Shown here in pieces: positions 28,746 to 42,133 of a stretch of 64,000 nt of DNA (position 1 is the first letter of the stretch; every line of letters starts with the position of its first letter). Below the pieces are notes generated by a model that was given only the letters and a program-made list of their open reading frames with translations, made no database searches and had not been told where the DNA came from. Location: assembly GCF_020905335.1 (NCBI RefSeq), contig NZ_JAJJMN010000001.1:620001-684000 (forward strand), given 5' to 3'. Both the position numbers and the translations under genes were made by a program. The stretch is from Flavobacterium lipolyticum. GTDB lineage: Bacteria > Bacteroidota > Bacteroidia > Flavobacteriales > Flavobacteriaceae.

Positions 28746-28753
28746 TATTTTTG
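28746..28753 (+). promoter_or_regulatory. -7 box TATTTTTG of the Cys-motif gene
   Basis: A TAnnTTTG match with TTTG at 28718-28721 as a possible -33 box (24-base gap, a little long). The TTG at 28751 lies within the box, so translation must begin further down, at TTG 28778. Confidence 0.5.
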
Positions 28754-28777
28754 CATTCGAAACAACGAAATCTACTC

Positions 28778-29155
28778 TTGAAGAAGTTATTTACCATATT
28801 TCTTTCCTGTATGCTCCTAGTGCCCTCATTCGGCAGTTTTGTTGTTTATACCTCTTTCAAATTAAATCAGGACGAGATCGTAAAAACGATTTGTGTGCAG
28901 CGTAAATTAATTTTTAACACCTGTAACGGTCGATGCGAACTTCAGAAAAGTTTAAAAAAATACGCTGACAACGAAAAGAAAATGCAAAACAACCTGAAAG
29001 AAAAATCAGAGATCGTTTACATTCAAAATACAACCACAGCCGATTTTAAATTAGTAGCACCTATAGAATCTAAAGTAAAAATTTATGCTTCTTTAGACGA
29101 AAAACCTATTTCGGTTTCTATTACTACTTTTCATCCTCCCTCCTATTTTATATAA
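28778..29155 (+). CDS. small membrane-anchored protein with C-x9-C-x3-C motif
   Basis: A 125-residue protein. Starting at TTG 28778 (the earlier TTG 28751 is inside the promoter box), it opens MKKLFTIFLSCMLLVPSFGSF, a signal sequence or anchor. It then has an absolutely spaced cysteine motif, Cys39, Cys49 and Cys53 (ICVQRK...TCNGRCELQK), followed by a Lys-rich amphipathic helix. Proteins with such CNGKCxL-like motifs recur in Bacteroidota next to copper or metal genes, from memory. Here it directly precedes the MbnP/MbnH block. A role in metal binding or delivery outside the cytoplasm is inferred; no enzyme motif is seen. Confidence 0.65.
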   Translation: MKKLFTIFLSCMLLVPSFGSFVVYTSFKLNQDEIVKTICVQRKLIFNTCNGRCELQKSLKKYADNEKKMQNNLKEKSEIVYIQNTTTADFKLVAPIESKVKIYASLDEKPISVSITTFHPPSYFI

Positions 29156-29194
29156 TTTTTTATGACTATTCGTGACTAATACCAAGCTGGTAAA

Positions 29195-29285
29195 ATTAGC
29201 CACAGATTAGAATGATTTCCACAGATTTCTTTATTAATTGTGTATAAAATCTATGTAAATCTGCAAAATCAGTGGCGAAAAAGTA
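29195..29285. repeat. GCCACAGATT / AATCTGC...AGTGGCG inverted repeat
   Basis: TAGCCACAGATTAGAATGATT and ACAGATTTCTTT are answered by GTAAATCTGC and CAGTGGCGA about 60 bases later, forming a long imperfect hairpin between the Cys-motif gene and mbnP. It looks like a member of an intergenic palindrome family. Confidence 0.55.
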
Positions 29286-29435
29286 CCCTTGGTGTGCATT
29301 GAGGACAGTCATATAATTTTTTAAATCCCGTTTCATTATCAATTGAAATGATTTTTTATTGTACCTAAAAAACAATAAAAAATGTGCTTGCTCGCACCCA
29401 AAAATTTAAAATTACAATTATATAAAATTCTTAAA

Positions 29436-30239
29436 ATGAAAAATACTTTATACAAAGCCCTTGCTATTGTAGCACTATCTATATCTTTATTTTCCTGTTC
29501 AAACGAAGACAATAACGAAACTGTTTCAGGAAATGGAAACATCACTTTAAAATTCGACAATGCTTATGGTGCAAACGATCTTATTTTAAACACACAGGGT
29601 AATATAACTTCAAACAACGAAGTACTAAAAATCAACCTTGTGAAGTATATCGTGAGCAATGTTGTTTTCACAAAAGCAGACGGAACGACTTTTACCTATC
29701 CCAAAAGCAAAAGCTACTTTATTGCTGACGAATCTACCACTGCCGGTCAGCAATTTAAACTAACAGATGTTCCCGCAGGTGATTATGTGAAAGTAAAATT
29801 CGGAATCGGAGTTGACGAAGCGCAATGGAAACTGGGTGCTGCGGGTCAGGGAGATTTTCTTGCACAGGCAGACGCTGCCGGTATGATGTGGTCATGGGCT
29901 GCCGGATATAAATTTCTTGCTTTCGAAGGTACTTTTACCTCATCGACTGTTACAACTGCTACGCCATTTATGATCCATACCGGAAAAACAGGAACAGATT
30001 ACAACTATACTGAAGTAACTGTCGATTTTCCAACAAAAGCTTTGGTTCGTTCTAACATTACTCCTGCTGTTCATATTATAACAGATCTTTCTAAAATAAT
30101 TGACGGTCAGAACAAAATCAAACTTTCCGATAATAATATGGGTGGTATGGGTGCCATGATTATGGGTGGCGCAAAACTGCCATTAATCACTCAAAACATT
30201 TCAACAATGTTTAGAATTGACCACGTACACAACGATTAA
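29436..30239 (+). CDS. mbnP: MbnP family lipoprotein (copy 1)
   Basis: A 267-residue lipoprotein from ATG 29436 (lipobox LFSC, Cys21). The domain starts ITLKFDNAYGANDLILN, and the family hallmark MMWSWAAGYKFLAFEG places Trp at residues 152 and 154; another Trp is at 131. MbnP proteins are periplasmic or surface proteins found with MauG-like MbnH enzymes; in the studied system MbnH oxidises a tryptophan of MbnP to kynurenine, creating a Cu(I) site. Lipid anchoring here would place it on an envelope membrane. It begins a run mbnP-mbnH-mbnP-mbnH. The C-terminal Met/Gly-rich segment (NNMGGMGAMIMGG) could add copper ligands, by inference. Confidence 0.85.
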   Translation: MKNTLYKALAIVALSISLFSCSNEDNNETVSGNGNITLKFDNAYGANDLILNTQGNITSNNEVLKINLVKYIVSNVVFTKADGTTFTYPKSKSYFIADESTTAGQQFKLTDVPAGDYVKVKFGIGVDEAQWKLGAAGQGDFLAQADAAGMMWSWAAGYKFLAFEGTFTSSTVTTATPFMIHTGKTGTDYNYTEVTVDFPTKALVRSNITPAVHIITDLSKIIDGQNKIKLSDNNMGGMGAMIMGGAKLPLITQNISTMFRIDHVHND

Positions 30240-30257
30240 TTTATTTTTTAAGAAGTA

Positions 30258-30330
30258 CAAACCTTTAGGCAAAACCTAAACAATCCACTATACCGTATCT
30301 TTTGTGTCCGCTAAAATGGACACAAGAGTA
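30258..30330 (+). promoter_or_regulatory. two hairpins between mbnP1 and mbnH1
   Basis: TTTAGG-caaaa-CCTAAA (~30263-30279) and TTGTGTCC (30302-30309) with GGACACAA (30318-30325). Neither is followed by a strong T run, so these look more like mRNA processing or regulatory structures than terminators. They occupy the 229-bp gap, the widest inside the cluster. Confidence 0.4.
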
Positions 30331-30468
30331 TATTGGTAACGGAAAAAAACACAGATACTTCTGCAAATCAAAGAGTAATCCCGGTAATTTTTAGTTTGTT
30401 CTACTTTGTGCTAACTCACGCAGGTAGTAATAAAAAATGCTCTTTACTCTTTTTACACCCAAAATATC

Positions 30469-31509
30469 ATGCTGAAAATAAAATACTTTCTTTGGCTATT
30501 GATTCCACTAATATGGAGCTGTTCGAATGAAGAGGAAGAATATGTAAATATTCCTTTAGAATTTAAAGTCCCTTCTAATTTCCCCGCTTTAGCGTACAAT
30601 ATTGCTCAGAATCCTCCAACAGTAAAAGGATTTGAACTGGGCAAAAAACTATTCTATGACGGACGTTTAGCGTCAGACGGAGTTGTTTCCTGTGGCTTTT
30701 GTCACATACAGGCTAATGCCTTCACTCATCACGGACACACGGTTAGTCATGGTGTAAACGATGCTCAGGGAACACGAAATACACCACCAATTCAAAATCT
30801 GGCTTACCAGTCTGTGTTTATGTACGATGGTTCTGCGGATCATTTAGACCTGCAGCCTATAATTCCGTTGACGAGTATTATAGAAATGAATGGGAATCTG
30901 AATGCTATTCTAAAAATGATGAAAGCCGACAAAGAATACCAAAAATTATTTGGACAGGCTTTTACTGACAAAGAAATCTCAACCGAAAACATGCTGAAAG
31001 CGCTTTCGCAGTTTATGGTTATGGTTACTTCTTCTAATTCAAAATTTGACAAATACAGACGTAAGGAGGCCGGCGGAACTTTAACTGCAGACGAATTGGC
31101 AGGATATGATTTGTTCCAATCAAAATGTGCTTCCTGCCATGCTACTGATTTACAAACCGACAATTCGTTTCGAAACAATGGTCTGGCTGTGAACCCAATG
31201 GTGAATGATGTCGGAAGATACAAAGTCACCGAACTGGCGAGCGATTACTACAAATTTAAAGTGCCCAGTTTACGGAATGTAGAAGTCTCCGGACCTTATA
31301 TGCACGACGGGCGATTCGGAACTCTGGAAGGTGTTCTGGATCACTATGCAAGAGGAATAGAATCCTCACCAACTCTGGATCCGATATTAAAACAAAACGG
31401 AAAATTTGGAATCACACTTTCCGAAACCGATAAAAAGCAAATCATAGCCTTCCTGAAAACATTAACCGATACAAGCTATTTAACTGACAAACGTTTTTCG
31501 GAATTTTAA
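30469..31509 (+). CDS. mbnH: MbnH-like di-haem c-type enzyme (MauG/CcpA superfamily), copy 1
   Basis: A 346-residue lipoprotein (lipobox IWSC, Cys18) with two haem-binding motifs, CGFCH (Cys75, Cys78, His79) and CASCH (Cys220, Cys223, His224). The conserved tail YMHDGRFGTLEGVLDHY is typical of bacterial di-haem peroxidases and MauG-like proteins. Paired with MbnP, such enzymes use peroxide or oxygen to oxidise a Trp on the partner rather than detoxifying peroxide in bulk. The last ~41 codons are much more similar to copy 2 than the rest of the gene. It follows mbnP1 on the same strand. Confidence 0.88.
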   Translation: MLKIKYFLWLLIPLIWSCSNEEEEYVNIPLEFKVPSNFPALAYNIAQNPPTVKGFELGKKLFYDGRLASDGVVSCGFCHIQANAFTHHGHTVSHGVNDAQGTRNTPPIQNLAYQSVFMYDGSADHLDLQPIIPLTSIIEMNGNLNAILKMMKADKEYQKLFGQAFTDKEISTENMLKALSQFMVMVTSSNSKFDKYRRKEAGGTLTADELAGYDLFQSKCASCHATDLQTDNSFRNNGLAVNPMVNDVGRYKVTELASDYYKFKVPSLRNVEVSGPYMHDGRFGTLEGVLDHYARGIESSPTLDPILKQNGKFGITLSETDKKQIIAFLKTLTDTSYLTDKRFSEF

Positions 31510-31537
31510 AAAACAATTTATTATAAAAACTTATAAA

Positions 31538-32320
31538 ATGACAAAACTTAAAAACATAACCTTAATTCTTATTTCTTTAATAGCTCTTAGCGCATGCTCT
31601 AGTGACGATGCACAGGCACCTGATGTTAGTGGAAATACACAAATCACTTTTGATTCAAAAATAGGAACCACAGATTTTGCCCTAAACACACCATTTACCA
31701 TTGCCGGACAATCTTACAAATTTGAACGTTTACGTTATTGGGTAAGTGATATGAAATTGGTAAGCGATCAAAACAAAACCTATTCGTTAGCAAATTCTTT
31801 CTTTTTGATGGAAGAAACAAATGAAATTTTAATTCAGGAAAAATACAAATATGCAGCGGCCAAAAGAGAAACGATAGACTTAGCAAATGTACCGTCGGGT
31901 TCCTATACAAAACTTATTTTCTCTGTTGGTGTTGACGCAACTCATAATGATAATATGAGTATTCAGAATGGTGAATTATCTCAACTTAACGGAATGACGA
32001 ATGTTTCATGGATGTGGCATACAAGTTATATTTTCTCTAGTTTGATTGGTAAAAATGTAACACCAACTACACCCGTAGCCATTTCTGTAGAAACAGGCCT
32101 GAATACAAATTACAAAACAGTAGAAATTACTTTACCAACTGCTTTAGTAGTAAGCGCAAGCAAAACAGCTAAATTGAACTTAAATGTTGATGTTGAGAAA
32201 ATTGTTAAGGACATTGATTTAGTTACCAATCCAAAAGTGTCTGCCAATAAGCCTGAATTAATGGCTAAAGCAGCCGATAATTACAAAAACAATGTTTTTA
32301 CATTTAAAAGCATCGAATAA
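31538..32320 (+). CDS. mbnP: MbnP family lipoprotein (copy 2)
   Basis: A 260-residue lipoprotein (lipobox LSAC, Cys20). The domain begins ITFDSKIGTTDFALN and carries the hallmark SWMWHTSYIFSSLIGK with Trp158 and Trp160; copy 1 has GYKF where this has SYIF. The Trp131 of copy 1 has no counterpart (THNDN here). It shares the MbnP layout but differs strongly in sequence from copy 1, so the pair is an old duplication or separate acquisition. It starts 28 bp after mbnH1 and ends 3 bp before mbnH2, so it is very likely co-transcribed and matched with mbnH2. Confidence 0.83.
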   Translation: MTKLKNITLILISLIALSACSSDDAQAPDVSGNTQITFDSKIGTTDFALNTPFTIAGQSYKFERLRYWVSDMKLVSDQNKTYSLANSFFLMEETNEILIQEKYKYAAAKRETIDLANVPSGSYTKLIFSVGVDATHNDNMSIQNGELSQLNGMTNVSWMWHTSYIFSSLIGKNVTPTTPVAISVETGLNTNYKTVEITLPTALVVSASKTAKLNLNVDVEKIVKDIDLVTNPKVSANKPELMAKAADNYKNNVFTFKSIE

Positions 32321-32323
32321 TTA

Positions 32324-33385
32324 ATGACAAACAAAAGCATTAAAATTGGGAGCATTATGGGATTGGTTTTTCTAAGCCTTTCCTGTAATGATCTTGATGA
32401 TTCTTATCAGGAACTACAACCATTGGTTACGATTCCTGCTAATTTCCCTGAATTTATTGATTCTAAAACAAATCCTCTCAGTGCAGACGGAATTGCATTA
32501 GGAAAAAAATTGTTCTTTGATAAAAGACTTTCTGGAAACAATCAGATTTCATGTGCAACTTGTCATCAACAAAATTTAGCCTTTTCTGATGGTTTTGCCT
32601 TAACTAATAATGGTATTTCCGGAAAAAAATTAGAGCGAAACTCCCCTGCATTAATGAATTTAGCCTGGACTACTAACGGGCTATTTTGGGATGGAGGTTC
32701 TACGAATTTAGAATCTCAAGCTTTTGCACCACTAGCTCACGAAGATGAAATGCATCAGAATTTAGGAGAGTTAATAGAGGAATTAAATGAGGATGCTCAT
32801 TACCCTGCAATGTTTCAAAAAGCATTTGGAAAAGCGATTAATCAAGCTGATATTGTAAAGGCAATAGCGCAATTTGAGCGAACTATGATTTCTGGAAACT
32901 CAAGATATGACAAATATGTCCGTGGAGAAACCGGGGGCCATTTAGATGAAAATGAATTAAAAGGGCTCCAACTTGCGGAACAATTTTGCTTCTCTTGTCA
33001 TAAGACTCCTTTATTAACTGACAATTTGTATCACAACAACGGGATTGACAGCAATTTTACTGATGACACTGAGCTTATGATCAAAAAAGGGAGAGCCAGG
33101 GTTACAAATTTAGCGGATGATTTGGGCAAGTTCAAAACGCCTACTTTACGCAATGTTGAAAAGACGGGTCCATACATGCATGATGGAAGATTTGCAACTT
33201 TAGATGAAGTACTTAATCATTATTCTGAAGGAGTTAAAGATTCCCCTAGTTTAGATGTAATCCTAAAACAAAACGGAAAGTTTGGAATCACACTTTCCGA
33301 AACGGATAAAAAACAAATCATAGCTTTCCTAAAAACGTTAACGGATACAGCATTTTTAACTGATAAACGTTTTGCAGAATTTTAA
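32324..33385 (+). CDS. mbnH: MbnH-like di-haem c-type enzyme, copy 2
   Basis: A 353-residue lipoprotein (lipobox SLSC, Cys21) with haem motifs CATCH (Cys77, Cys80, His81) and CFSCH (Cys222, Cys225, His226), and the tail YMHDGRFATLDEVLNHY. Compared with copy 1 it has FERTMISGNSRYDKYVRGE in place of FMVMVTSSNSKFDKYRRKE; the FERT form is nearer to classical cytochrome c peroxidases. It follows mbnP2 by 3 bp, so the two are an operon pair. The enzyme would sit lipid-anchored in the envelope and accept electrons or oxidise the partner MbnP. Confidence 0.88.
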   Translation: MTNKSIKIGSIMGLVFLSLSCNDLDDSYQELQPLVTIPANFPEFIDSKTNPLSADGIALGKKLFFDKRLSGNNQISCATCHQQNLAFSDGFALTNNGISGKKLERNSPALMNLAWTTNGLFWDGGSTNLESQAFAPLAHEDEMHQNLGELIEELNEDAHYPAMFQKAFGKAINQADIVKAIAQFERTMISGNSRYDKYVRGETGGHLDENELKGLQLAEQFCFSCHKTPLLTDNLYHNNGIDSNFTDDTELMIKKGRARVTNLADDLGKFKTPTLRNVEKTGPYMHDGRFATLDEVLNHYSEGVKDSPSLDVILKQNGKFGITLSETDKKQIIAFLKTLTDTAFLTDKRFAEF

Positions 33386-33451
33386 AAATACGGCCGCAGA
33401 TTATTGTACTGTAGAAATATATAAGCTGTAATAAAAAACATAATGAAAACC

Positions 33452-33538
33452 GAAGTCCTAGCCCCGATAGAGGCGGTATCCTTTTTGGGTGATTTTTCTT
33501 CACCCAAAAAGATAAAGCCGAAAGCGGGATTAGCTTCT
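33452..33538 (+). ncRNA. structured RNA element resembling Flavo-1
   Basis: Three nested stems are visible: outer GAAG...CTTC with CTA/TAG and CCCG/CGGG, middle GGCGGTATC with GATAAAGCC, and an inner hairpin TTTTTGGGTGA / TTCACCCAAAAA. The text GCCCCGATAGAGGCGG and CCGAAAGCGGGA match my memory of the Flavo-1 motif, a conserved RNA of unknown function in Flavobacteria. It lies between mbnH2 and the outer-membrane protein gene. Confidence 0.6.
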
Positions 33539-33551
33539 AAAAATAATTAAG

Positions 33552-34511
33552 ATGAAAAAAATAATAGTAATGTTCGCCCTTTTGACTGGTTCATCAGCCT
33601 TTAGTTTTACTTCGAAAGATAGTATTTCCGCCTTCACTTTTCAGCGTATGGCTTTGATGGAGGATTTCGATTGTGACGCCTGTGGTTGTTCGGCAAGTGG
33701 AGGGAGTATGGGATTTAGCTCTATGCTGAACAACAATTTTGTAGGTCTGAGATATTTCAAACAAAGTTATACCAGCCGCGACGGAATCTTTGCAAACTCT
33801 CCGTGGATTGACGAAAATTTCAATACTGTTCAGGCATGGGCACGTATACCAGTTACAGAAAAAGTACAAATTTCAGCATTGATTCCGTATCATTTTCATG
33901 AAAGACAATTAACTGCAGGAACCGAAAATATTGCCGGTTTGGGCGATATTACGGTAATGGCTTTGTACACTGTTTTTGAAACTCAAAAAGACAGCACCAT
34001 TTTTACACATAAAGTAAGCCTCGGCGGTGGTGTTAAAATTCCAACCGGAAAATTTACGGAAGCCAATAATATAGGAAGTATCAACCAAAGTTTTCAATTG
34101 GGGACCGGAAGCTGGGACTTTCCGTTGGCCACTGAGTATGTGGTAAAACGCAAAAATCTGGGACTAAATACTACTCTGAATTATATTTTTAAAACCCAAA
34201 ACAGCAAAAATTATCAGTACGGTGATCAGTTTAATTATGCTGCCACTTTCTTTTATTTATTTAATACAAAATCAATTCAAATTGTTCCGCAAGCCGGATT
34301 GGCAGGTGAACTTTATCAAACCAATAAACAGCATAATCTGAATTTACCCAATACAGCCGGCGATATTTTGTTTGGGAAATTTGGTCTTGAAGCCGGAAAA
34401 GATAAATTCTCGATTGGTGTAAATGCAATGCTGCCAATTGCTCAGAACCTTTCAAATGGAAACATGGAAGCCAATTACAGATGGAGTATTAATTTGAATT
34501 ATACTTTGTAA
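33552..34511 (+). CDS. outer-membrane beta-barrel protein with CDACGC motif
   Basis: A 319-residue exported protein. After the signal peptide (MKKIIVMFALLTGSSAFS) the mature start carries DFDCDACGCSASGGSMG, a C-x2-C-x-C cluster that could bind metal, followed by ~270 residues of alternating amphipathic strands ending in Leu (SINLNYTL), typical of an outer-membrane barrel. It resembles uncharacterised transporter-like proteins found beside MbnP/MbnH genes in Bacteroidota. Its position as last gene of the block suggests it forms the outer-membrane passage or surface receptor of the system, by inference. Confidence 0.78.
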   Translation: MKKIIVMFALLTGSSAFSFTSKDSISAFTFQRMALMEDFDCDACGCSASGGSMGFSSMLNNNFVGLRYFKQSYTSRDGIFANSPWIDENFNTVQAWARIPVTEKVQISALIPYHFHERQLTAGTENIAGLGDITVMALYTVFETQKDSTIFTHKVSLGGGVKIPTGKFTEANNIGSINQSFQLGTGSWDFPLATEYVVKRKNLGLNTTLNYIFKTQNSKNYQYGDQFNYAATFFYLFNTKSIQIVPQAGLAGELYQTNKQHNLNLPNTAGDILFGKFGLEAGKDKFSIGVNAMLPIAQNLSNGNMEANYRWSINLNYTL

Positions 34512-37769: not shown

Positions 37770-38310
37770 TTACCTGGGATTTTCTTCGTAGTACCTTGCT
37801 TCGATTCGTTTAATATCTTTTACTGAGTTTTTTGCCCAAATCAATCGCTTTTCCAGAATTTCTTCGTCTGATAATTGCCATTGGATGTCTGAATTTCGCA
37901 ATCGGTTGGTCAGGTTTTGAATGATAATGGCTGCCGAAACGGAAATGTTTGAACTTTCTGTACAACCTACCATCGGAATTTTAAGAAAACCATCCGCTTT
38001 TTCCATAATTTCAGAAGATAATCTGTCTTTTTCTGTTCCGAAAAATAAGGTCCTTGGTTTTGTGATATCGAAATCCGGAATTAAACAATCGTTTTTATCA
38101 GGAGTTCTCAATAATTTGATATCCTTGGTTTCACAAAGAAGTCATACCCTCCTCTACGGTATCAAAACGATTGATGTCAACCTATTTTTGTGCACCTAAA
38201 GCGATTTGTTTGTCGATTCTTTTTCCAAAACGCTGCTCAATATTAAGTTCCTGAATCCCGAAAACCTTGCAACTGCGTATTGCGGTGCAGGTATTTTGCA
38301 ACACGTACAA
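37770..38310 (-). pseudogene. decayed TrmH/SpoU-family methyltransferase copy
   Basis: The 113-codon open part (38111-37770) equals the C-terminal half of the intact gene at 41439. Over ~120 bp (37891-38013 against 41566-41688) I count only two mismatches. The 5' half continues to ~38305 but has a 2-base deletion at the point matching GTTGTCGCAATAATTT, which shifts the frame, a 3-base deletion near 38240 and rising divergence, and no start codon. It lacks the N-terminal substrate region and cannot make a functional enzyme. It is a direct repeat of the intact gene ~3.67 kb away. Confidence 0.85.
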
Positions 38311-41438: not shown

Positions 41439-42113
41439 CTAATCTGATGTTTCTTTCTCAGAATAATATCGTGCTTCAATACGCCTAATATCTTTAATCG
41501 AATTTTTCGCCCAAATCAATCGTTTTTCTAGAATTTCTTCGTCTGACAATTGCCATTTGATATCTGAATTTCGCAATCGGTTGGTCAGGTTTTGAATGAT
41601 AATGGCTGCCGAAACGGAAATGTTTAAACTTTCTGTAAAACCTACCATCGGAATTTTAAGAAAACCATCCGCTTTTTCCATAATTTCAGGAGATAATCCG
41701 TCTTTTTCTGTTCCAAAAAATAAGGCACTTGGTTTTGTGATATCGAAATCCTGAATTAAACAATCGTTTTCATGCGGAGTTGTCGCAATAATTTGATATC
41801 CTTGGTTTCGCAAAGAAGTCATACAGCCCTCTACGGTATCAAAACGATTGATGTCAACCCATTTTTGTGCACCCAGAGCGATTTCTTTATCGATTCTTTT
41901 TCCGAAACGCTGCTCAATAATATTCAGTTCCTGAATTCCGAAAACCTCACAACTGCGCATCACAGCACTAGTATTGTGCATCTGAAAAACATCTTCTACA
42001 GCAACTGTAAAATGTTTGGTGCGATTGGCCAGAACATCCAAAAATCGTTCTTTGCGGTTGTCTGTTAATATATTTTCAAGAAAAGCGAGGTAATCTAAAT
42101 CAATCATTTCCAT
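41439..42113 (-). CDS. TrmH/SpoU-family RNA 2'-O-methyltransferase
   Basis: A ~224-residue SPOUT enzyme; ATG 42113 or ATG 42107 is preferred because TTG 42128 lies inside a TATTTTTG promoter box. Motif 1 is NTSAVMRSCEVFGIQ, motif 2 lies in SALFFGTEKDGLSPEIME and motif 3 in IPMVGFTESLNISVSAAIII, the knotted SAM-binding site. Such enzymes methylate ribose 2'-OH, typically Gm18 of tRNA. The decayed copy at 37770 shares its 3' half almost exactly. Being intact, this copy is probably the working gene. Confidence 0.92.
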   Translation of the reverse strand: MEMIDLDYLAFLENILTDNRKERFLDVLANRTKHFTVAVEDVFQMHNTSAVMRSCEVFGIQELNIIEQRFGKRIDKEIALGAQKWVDINRFDTVEGCMTSLRNQGYQIIATTPHENDCLIQDFDITKPSALFFGTEKDGLSPEIMEKADGFLKIPMVGFTESLNISVSAAIIIQNLTNRLRNSDIKWQLSDEEILEKRLIWAKNSIKDIRRIEARYYSEKETSD

Positions 42114-42125
42114 CTTAATTTGCCA

Positions 42126-42133
42126 CAAAAATA
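42126..42133 (-). promoter_or_regulatory. -7 box TATTTTTG of the TrmH-family gene
   Basis: Read on the minus strand. The last G of the box would place transcription near 42119, giving a leader of only 6-12 nt before ATG 42113 or 42107. The TTG at 42128 lies inside the box and is not a plausible start. Confidence 0.5.

Follow-up and report, generated by a model that had tools for sequence, protein, structure and literature searches.

In the six-gene block of Flavobacterium lipolyticum described here, the first gene is probably a copper-sensing leader that controls the translation of the downstream MbnP/MbnH genes in cis, and the operon probably serves copper uptake. The block was examined within a stretch of 64,000 nucleotides (the window). 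The reading is based on a promoter box located only before the leader, on a Cys box and a Pro-Pro pair 62-73 residues apart, and on predicted pairing between the two arms listed below. The features are as follows, with window positions and strand:

28746-28753, +: -7 promoter box TATTTTTG of the Bacteroidota type TAnnTTTG, with no other TAnnTTTG on the plus strand between 28500 and 34600
28778-29155, +: leader gene, TTG start, 125 residues
28892-28936, +: leader Cys box C39-x9-C49-N-G-R-C53, the three Cys being invariant in 25 divergent rows
29135-29140, +: codons of the Pro-Pro pair (residues 120-121), where the stall is proposed
29145-29157, +: 5' arm of the putative closing helix, formed by the last leader codons and the stop (fold of 29135-29447)
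29416-29428, +: 3' arm of the putative closing helix, 7 nt 5' of the mbnP1 ATG
29436-30239, +: mbnP1, core-type MbnP with WxW 152/154, His181 and C-terminal HVH (PF20243, 146.6 bits)
30469-31509, +: mbnH1, di-haem enzyme of the MauG/CcP type with two CxxCH (PF03150, 164.4 bits; 6e1c, E 4e-40)
31538-32320, +: mbnP2, diverged MbnP with WxW 158/160 and Glu185 replacing the core His (PF20243, 120.4 bits)
32324-33385, +: mbnH2, di-haem enzyme of the MauG/CcP type, partner of mbnP2 (PF03150, 193.9 bits; 6e1c, E 3.5e-46)
33552-34511, +: outer-membrane barrel, CDACGC close to the N-terminus of the mature protein

According to the list of open reading frames, the small gene, mbnP1, mbnH1, mbnP2, mbnH2 and the barrel gene follow each other on the plus strand 3' of secA. 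All six genes are present and co-directional, as stated in the preliminary description, and the gaps of 28 and 3 nt around mbnP2 were found as claimed; 229 nt separate mbnP1 from mbnH1 and 166 nt mbnH2 from the barrel gene. The reported C-x9-C-x3-C motif was located at residues 39, 49 and 53 of the 125-residue form of the small protein, and CDACGC was present in the barrel protein. The WxW positions given for both MbnP hold provided that mbnP1 starts at ATG 29436, which was taken here as start, instead of 29382, where the longest ORF begins. Lipoboxes had been assigned to all four MbnP and MbnH proteins. A lipobox-like Cys was found in each of them, but the Trp at position -2 of MbnH1 is untypical. 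The start assigned to the small gene, 28746, had to be given up: it coincides with the -7 promoter box, and the gene most likely spans 28778-29155 with a TTG start.

Leader family and operon context

For the leader family no Pfam or NCBIfam model came near its cut-off. Searches for homologues yielded 615 close ones, a protein named from Flavobacterium johnsoniae being among them, and the leader was detected in 43 of 249 family genomes, in 208 of 298 genus genomes and, across Bacteroidota, in 152 of 395 genomes and 67 of 170 genera. Its parts follow in the order hydrophobic N-terminus, Cys box, variable linker and Pro-Pro near the stop. In 25 divergent rows one Ile, three Cys, a Gly, a Leu and two Pro were invariant. 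Pro-Pro lay within the last 14 residues in 41 of 42 first-set homologues, compared with 3 of 425 other called genes; the sole exception was a shortened frame of 54 residues. All 31 homologues whose profile match stopped short of this position nevertheless carried Pro-Pro, thus the motif is no artefact of the search profile. In a larger set of 116 leader frames, taken from 100 chosen loci and the window, Pro-Pro was present in 115, 2-8 residues from the stop. The distance from Cys box to Pro-Pro was 62-73 residues in this set, while the linker sequence varied. The residue preceding Pro-Pro (n=115) was H in 47, P in 37, R in 22, Q in 4, K in 4 and M in 1 case; the window leader has HPP. By a hydrophobicity measure, 113 of 115 leaders had a hydrophobic 15-mer ahead of the Cys box. 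Gene calling in the locus scans relied on a plain longest-ORF scheme, and a hydrophobicity rule decided the next start; both add noise to the locus, partner-permutation and pairing-scan counts.

The genes behind the 116 leaders, counted up to the next leader, included an MbnP in 36 cases, a TonB receptor in 63 and both in 4; PepSY_TM was found in 13 cases (the two PepSY references being PF03929) and none of the marked genes in 14. The TonB-copper model TIGR01778 was the best NCBIfam match in four of six scanned receptors, and a siderophore subfamily in the two PepSY-linked receptors, all of these matches lying below cut-off. Of 64 receptors counted in the retrieved loci, 38 carried the motif C-x3-MDP. 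The downstream operons are likely of the copper uptake type. A Cys box does not reveal metal specificity, and SecM-like leaders sense export, so the family could respond to zinc, thiol oxidation or export status instead of copper. Some CutF-like proteins adjoin nickel/cobalt genes (PMC9973294). The copper-type genes behind the leaders, namely MbnP/MbnH, the C-x3-MDP receptors and those with TIGR01778 as best, though sub-cut-off, match, speak against such a signal, which we regard as quite improbable.

In Bacteroidota the -7 box has the consensus TAnnTTTG. It was found ahead of 77 of 115 leaders (about 11 expected), the exact box being absent ahead of the other 38, and in only 1 of 108 gaps after the leader (about 7 expected). 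Loci L217-L221 carry two units in succession, leader-MbnP-MbnH-barrel first and then another leader with a receptor and PepSY. A separate leader for each adjoining operon is as expected for a cis-acting element.

In the preliminary description the small Cys protein was instead taken for a periplasmic copper carrier that would serve MbnP, receptors and barrel in trans. The protein looks exported, given the hydrophobic segment before three conserved Cys, and it is found together with copper-type genes. A carrier, however, has no need of a kept linker length with varying linker sequence, of a Pro-Pro near the stop, of an own copy in each of two side-by-side operons or of last codons that pair with the next gene. 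A cis-acting leader accounts better for the Pro-Pro at the end, the nearly constant spacing, the place at the operon head and the RNA pairing, and the carrier function appears improbable.

Predicted pairing of the leader end with the next start

The stretch of mRNA that immediately follows the codons for Pro-Pro, comprising the last leader codons and the stop, is predicted to pair with a segment 5' of the next ATG. For the first set, the true partners gave -10.54 kcal/mol versus -6.52 with permuted partners (100 loci; sd 0.25, lowest of 5000 permutations -7.54) and -7.39 kcal/mol with permutation within gene class (100 loci). The own partner ranked in the top 5% in 42 of 110 loci. Ordinary gene pairs, used as control, showed a small excess (-8.22 versus -7.41 permuted; 30 of 252 in the top 5%). 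The effect was weaker in the second set, which shares some Flavobacterium loci with the first: the values were -9.67 versus -7.86 (57 loci), and 8 of 57 loci had their own partner ranked within the top 5%. Without Flavobacterium the second set gave -9.76 versus -8.26 (48 loci; lowest of 5000 -9.66).

Scans along the leader located the peak of complementarity at the Pro-Pro end. In the genus it reached -9.34 over a baseline of -4.25 (20 loci), and -8.22 over -5.79 in the other first-set loci (56 loci). The peak of the second set was less sharp (-8.15, with an uneven baseline of -6.57; 46 loci). Furthermore, the gap after the leader was more strongly folded, relative to shuffled sequences, than the leader coding sequence, with mean z of -2.43 versus -0.70 in the first set (110 loci) and -2.90 versus -0.37 in the second (46 loci).

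A common helix of 11 pairs was identified in 13 genus loci, with 97.2% of cells paired; sliding of the helix reduced pairing to 41-61%. Its covariation score was 0.172 versus 0.043 and was reached by none of 500 shuffles, and 8 cells were changed on both sides versus 2.4 in shuffled data. The number of double-changed pairs (3) was ordinary compared with the shuffles (127 of 500). Nine TonB-receptor loci showed two double-changed pairs. In the window the helix joins 29145-29157 to 29416-29428 (z of the fold of 29135-29447, -6.29), and it is kept despite a gap lengthened by a partly repeated stretch.

Instead of opening the next start, the leader could also act on transcription, with attenuation of the Rho-dependent or intrinsic kind taking place in the gap. 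CruR acts through Rho (PMC9426467), and terminator-like hairpins were detected in 35 of 110 gaps (8.6 expected), which suggests attenuation in part of the leader family. In the scan used, 75 of the 110 gaps had no such hairpin, and a terminator as sole device was rejected on this count. The pairing arm at the next ATG, found in all three sets, is not needed for attenuation. Control by attenuation instead of start opening is rather unlikely.

For control at the next start, the following course is proposed. At low copper the ribosome would stall at Pro-Pro. Given the size of a ribosome footprint, it would then cover most of the 5' arm, which begins a few nucleotides downstream; the helix would stay open and MbnP/MbnH would be made. 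Copper on the exported Cys box would release the stall, the helix would close and expression would drop. The Cys box should have passed the translocon and lie in the periplasm while the ribosome is on Pro-Pro, because the spacing is 62-73 residues, compared with 45 in CutF. The CruR polarity, expression at low copper, was chosen because the operons are of the uptake type. As to the products, Cu(I) would sit in MbnP1 at a site that MbnH generates from Trp, and MbnP2 would be a diverged partner alongside.

Relation to known copper leaders

For CruR, copper was proposed to free a RAPP-stalled ribosome, after which Rho ends transcription (PMC9426467), and arrest was shown in vitro, the P and A sites being occupied by the Pro-Pro codons (PMC12992588). 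For CutF, copper prolongs a stalling-like state which opens a stem-loop over the next start; the proline motif alone gave no stall in the published fusion test, and the authors placed the Cys motif in the SecY vestibule (PMC9973294). We read the small gene as a probable copper-sensing nascent leader working like CruR and CutF, but outside DUF2946.

With CruR (DUF2946, Bordetella; PMC9426467) the leader shares the form of a small uORF with a putative export signal, a Cys motif and Pro-Pro near the C-terminus, the conserved motif spacing, and the position at the head of operons with a TonB receptor, PepSY_TM and MbnPH-like genes. It differs in HPP, RPP or PPP in place of RAPP, in C-x7..11-CxGxC in place of CXXC, in a spacing of 62-73 instead of 45 residues and in a helix at the next start where a Rho site was shown for CruR. 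PF11162 (DUF2946) had no match at E up to 1 among 25 members of the leader family. The model itself matched 4 of 118 Bacteroidota genomes, one of them over cut-off, and the source genome was not among them. Lacking both a PF11162 match and a C-terminal RAPP, the leader was rejected as a member of DUF2946/CruR.

CutF and CutF-like proteins (Rhodobacter and census; PMC9973294) resemble the leader in having fewer than 150 residues, Pro-Pro at most 15 residues from the end, a same-strand gene within 1000 nt and, for CutF, a stem-loop over the next start; their N-terminal export signal has a putative counterpart in the hydrophobic N-terminus of the leader. The window leader has 125 residues, Pro-Pro at 120-121 and mbnP1 280 nt downstream. 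In contrast to CutF, the leader heads uptake and not detoxification operons, hence the opposite polarity is likely; moreover, its Cys-to-proline spacing is longer and one helix arm consists of its own last codons. The RAPP/RGPP arrest peptides (PMC12992588) likewise come from small uORFs ahead of TonB and copper genes and end in a Pro-Pro motif; they are exported, as the leader probably is, but the leader family carries neither RAPP nor RGPP.

Of the 5,334 proteins in the CutF-like census (PMC9973294), 19% belong to Bacteroidota, a share that normalisation raises to 40%, and the census probably overlaps the leader family. Since it includes Bacteroidota, the kind of element is already known; apart from it, no Bacteroidota copper leader was found described in the literature searched. 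As far as this literature shows, new are the definition of the leader family with its spacing, the link to MbnP/MbnH operons, the helix from the leader's last codons and the His-to-Glu type of MbnP.

As a wider and tentative reading, possible but short of probable, much of the copper uptake in Bacteroidota would be governed by a single family of exported nascent-chain sensors found across the phylum, with an own leader for each operon. The last codons would form the helix arm that shuts the next gene, and the Pro-Pro-paused ribosome would be both read-out of the sensor and opener of the lid; here two ancient MbnP/MbnH systems would be served, the His-to-Glu change of MbnP2 marking a different metal or redox site. 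A leader that acts as proposed further above would show how copper import is controlled across a phylum of outer-membrane bacteria. It would also fill a gap in the RAPP/RGPP survey, which gives no copper-related uORFs of its own motif in Bacteroidota (PMC12992588), and would offer a compact system to dissect nascent-chain metal sensing, ribosome pausing and RNA opening.

A conserved module with two MbnP/MbnH pairs

The two MbnP/MbnH pairs, together with leader and barrel, are conserved as a module. When genomes of named species were scanned with an MbnP2-type profile, 49 loci were obtained. In 40 of them a Pro-Pro-ended leader lay upstream on the same strand, with MbnH2, MbnP1, MbnH1 and the barrel within 7 kb; the other nine miss one or more parts, at least three of them (L242, L257, L261) because of contig ends. 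Conservation of the neighbours, on which the preliminary description had made its proposal depend, was thus found, and since the block recurs in other genomes it is not a product of chance. The order leader-P1-H1-P2-H2-barrel occurs in Flavobacterium and also in Leeuwenhoekiella and Sinomicrobium. Chitinophaga, Pedobacter and Sphingobacterium mostly show P2-H2-P1-H1-barrel, and in Dyadobacter the leader splits the two pairs. Within the genus sample, close relatives of MbnP2 (at least 73%) were detected in 4 of 298 genomes, the source genome included. An MbnP2 match of 100% comes from Flavobacterium sp. UGB4466, found in rainbow trout larvae.

Both MbnP exceeded the Pfam cut-off of PF20243 (27) and both MbnH that of PF03150 (25.6). 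The equivalog cut-off of TIGR04052 (140) was missed by both MbnP (42.8 and 33.2 bits) and the cut-off of TIGR04039 (362.85) by both MbnH (215.2 and 255.1 bits), although TIGR04039 was the best NCBIfam match for both MbnH. In alignments WxW was kept in 27 of 27 MbnP rows, and the two CxxCH of MbnH were conserved. The Methylosinus MbnP/MbnH (7l6g, 6e1c) and CorA share with the block the MbnP fold, WxW and the adjoining di-haem partner, whereas the block has two old paralogous pairs in one operon, with scores below these two NCBIfam cut-offs. CorA is a copper-repressed, surface-bound Cu(I) protein with a Trp-derived kynurenine (PMC3912023).

The assumed duplication is not a recent one. MbnP1 and MbnP2 are only 24-27% identical within each of five loci, hence the pairs, judged from their sequences, are old paralogues, two old lineages kept together and not a fresh copy. 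Recurrence of the pairs in swapped order likewise led to rejection of a recent tandem duplication. The proposal of two substrate-enzyme pairs stands as far as the conserved module is concerned, but their equivalence is doubtful, because MbnP2 lacks core His residues. H181 of MbnP1 aligns with a His of 7l6g, where MbnP2 has Glu. This Glu was found in 51 of 52 rows of the MbnP2 type, the remaining row having a gap, and His in 47 of 52 rows of core MbnP. MbnP2 may be a diverged partner with a metal or redox site different from that of MbnP1, and its type offers a natural way to find out on which residues near the Trp pair kynurenine formation and copper binding depend. H161 beside WxW was considered as a further fixed mark of MbnP2, being present in 6 of 6 first-set rows, and was dropped at 39 of 52 in the larger set. 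The structure matches listed for MbnP2 contained no CorA or MopE row and gave no evidence of a different fold.

A plasmid search with MbnH2 returned 347 records, all below 60% identity. The whole genome has two PF20243 matches, both in the block, and MbnP is common, occurring in 139 of 299 family and 190 of 299 genus genomes. The barrel shows 12-14% identity to the COG4313 channel (4rl8) and FapF (5o65), from which a conserved CDxCxC near the mature N-terminus sets it apart.

C-terminal tails and WDG position of the MbnH enzymes

The C-terminal 50 residues of the di-haem enzymes MbnH1 and MbnH2 are encoded in the window at:
31357-31506 (+), tail of MbnH1
33233-33382 (+), tail of MbnH2

These tails share 88% identity (DNA 81%), whereas 28-66% was found for the remainder of both proteins. 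Compared with the tails of two MbnH2 orthologues, the MbnH2 tail of the window reached just 64-66% identity. Taken together, these values suggest gene conversion between the 3' ends of mbnH1 and mbnH2. At 30823-30825, Tyr is encoded in core MbnH1 of the genus (Phe in one case); MbnH2 and other genera carry the Trp of WDG at this position.

Leader genes and the gap to mbnP1

The gap between the leader gene, proposed to encode a copper-sensing peptide, and mbnP1 is longer than in most relatives (29160-29330). Its extra stretch occurs elsewhere in the genome as one copy of 95 bp (88%) and four shorter copies.

Second leaders were observed in loci of other genomes. In L212-L214 and L241-L244 the order is barrel gene, 204-residue gene, second leader (..IYHPPR..) and 288-residue gene. 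At L110:2992-4225, two successive leaders with a 145-residue gene in between head an MbnP-MbnH-barrel operon.

Further genes in the window

The ORF list of the window contains a partial copy of a presumably rRNA-methylase-like gene and, nearby, a full one (37770-38111 (-) and 41439-42128 (-)).
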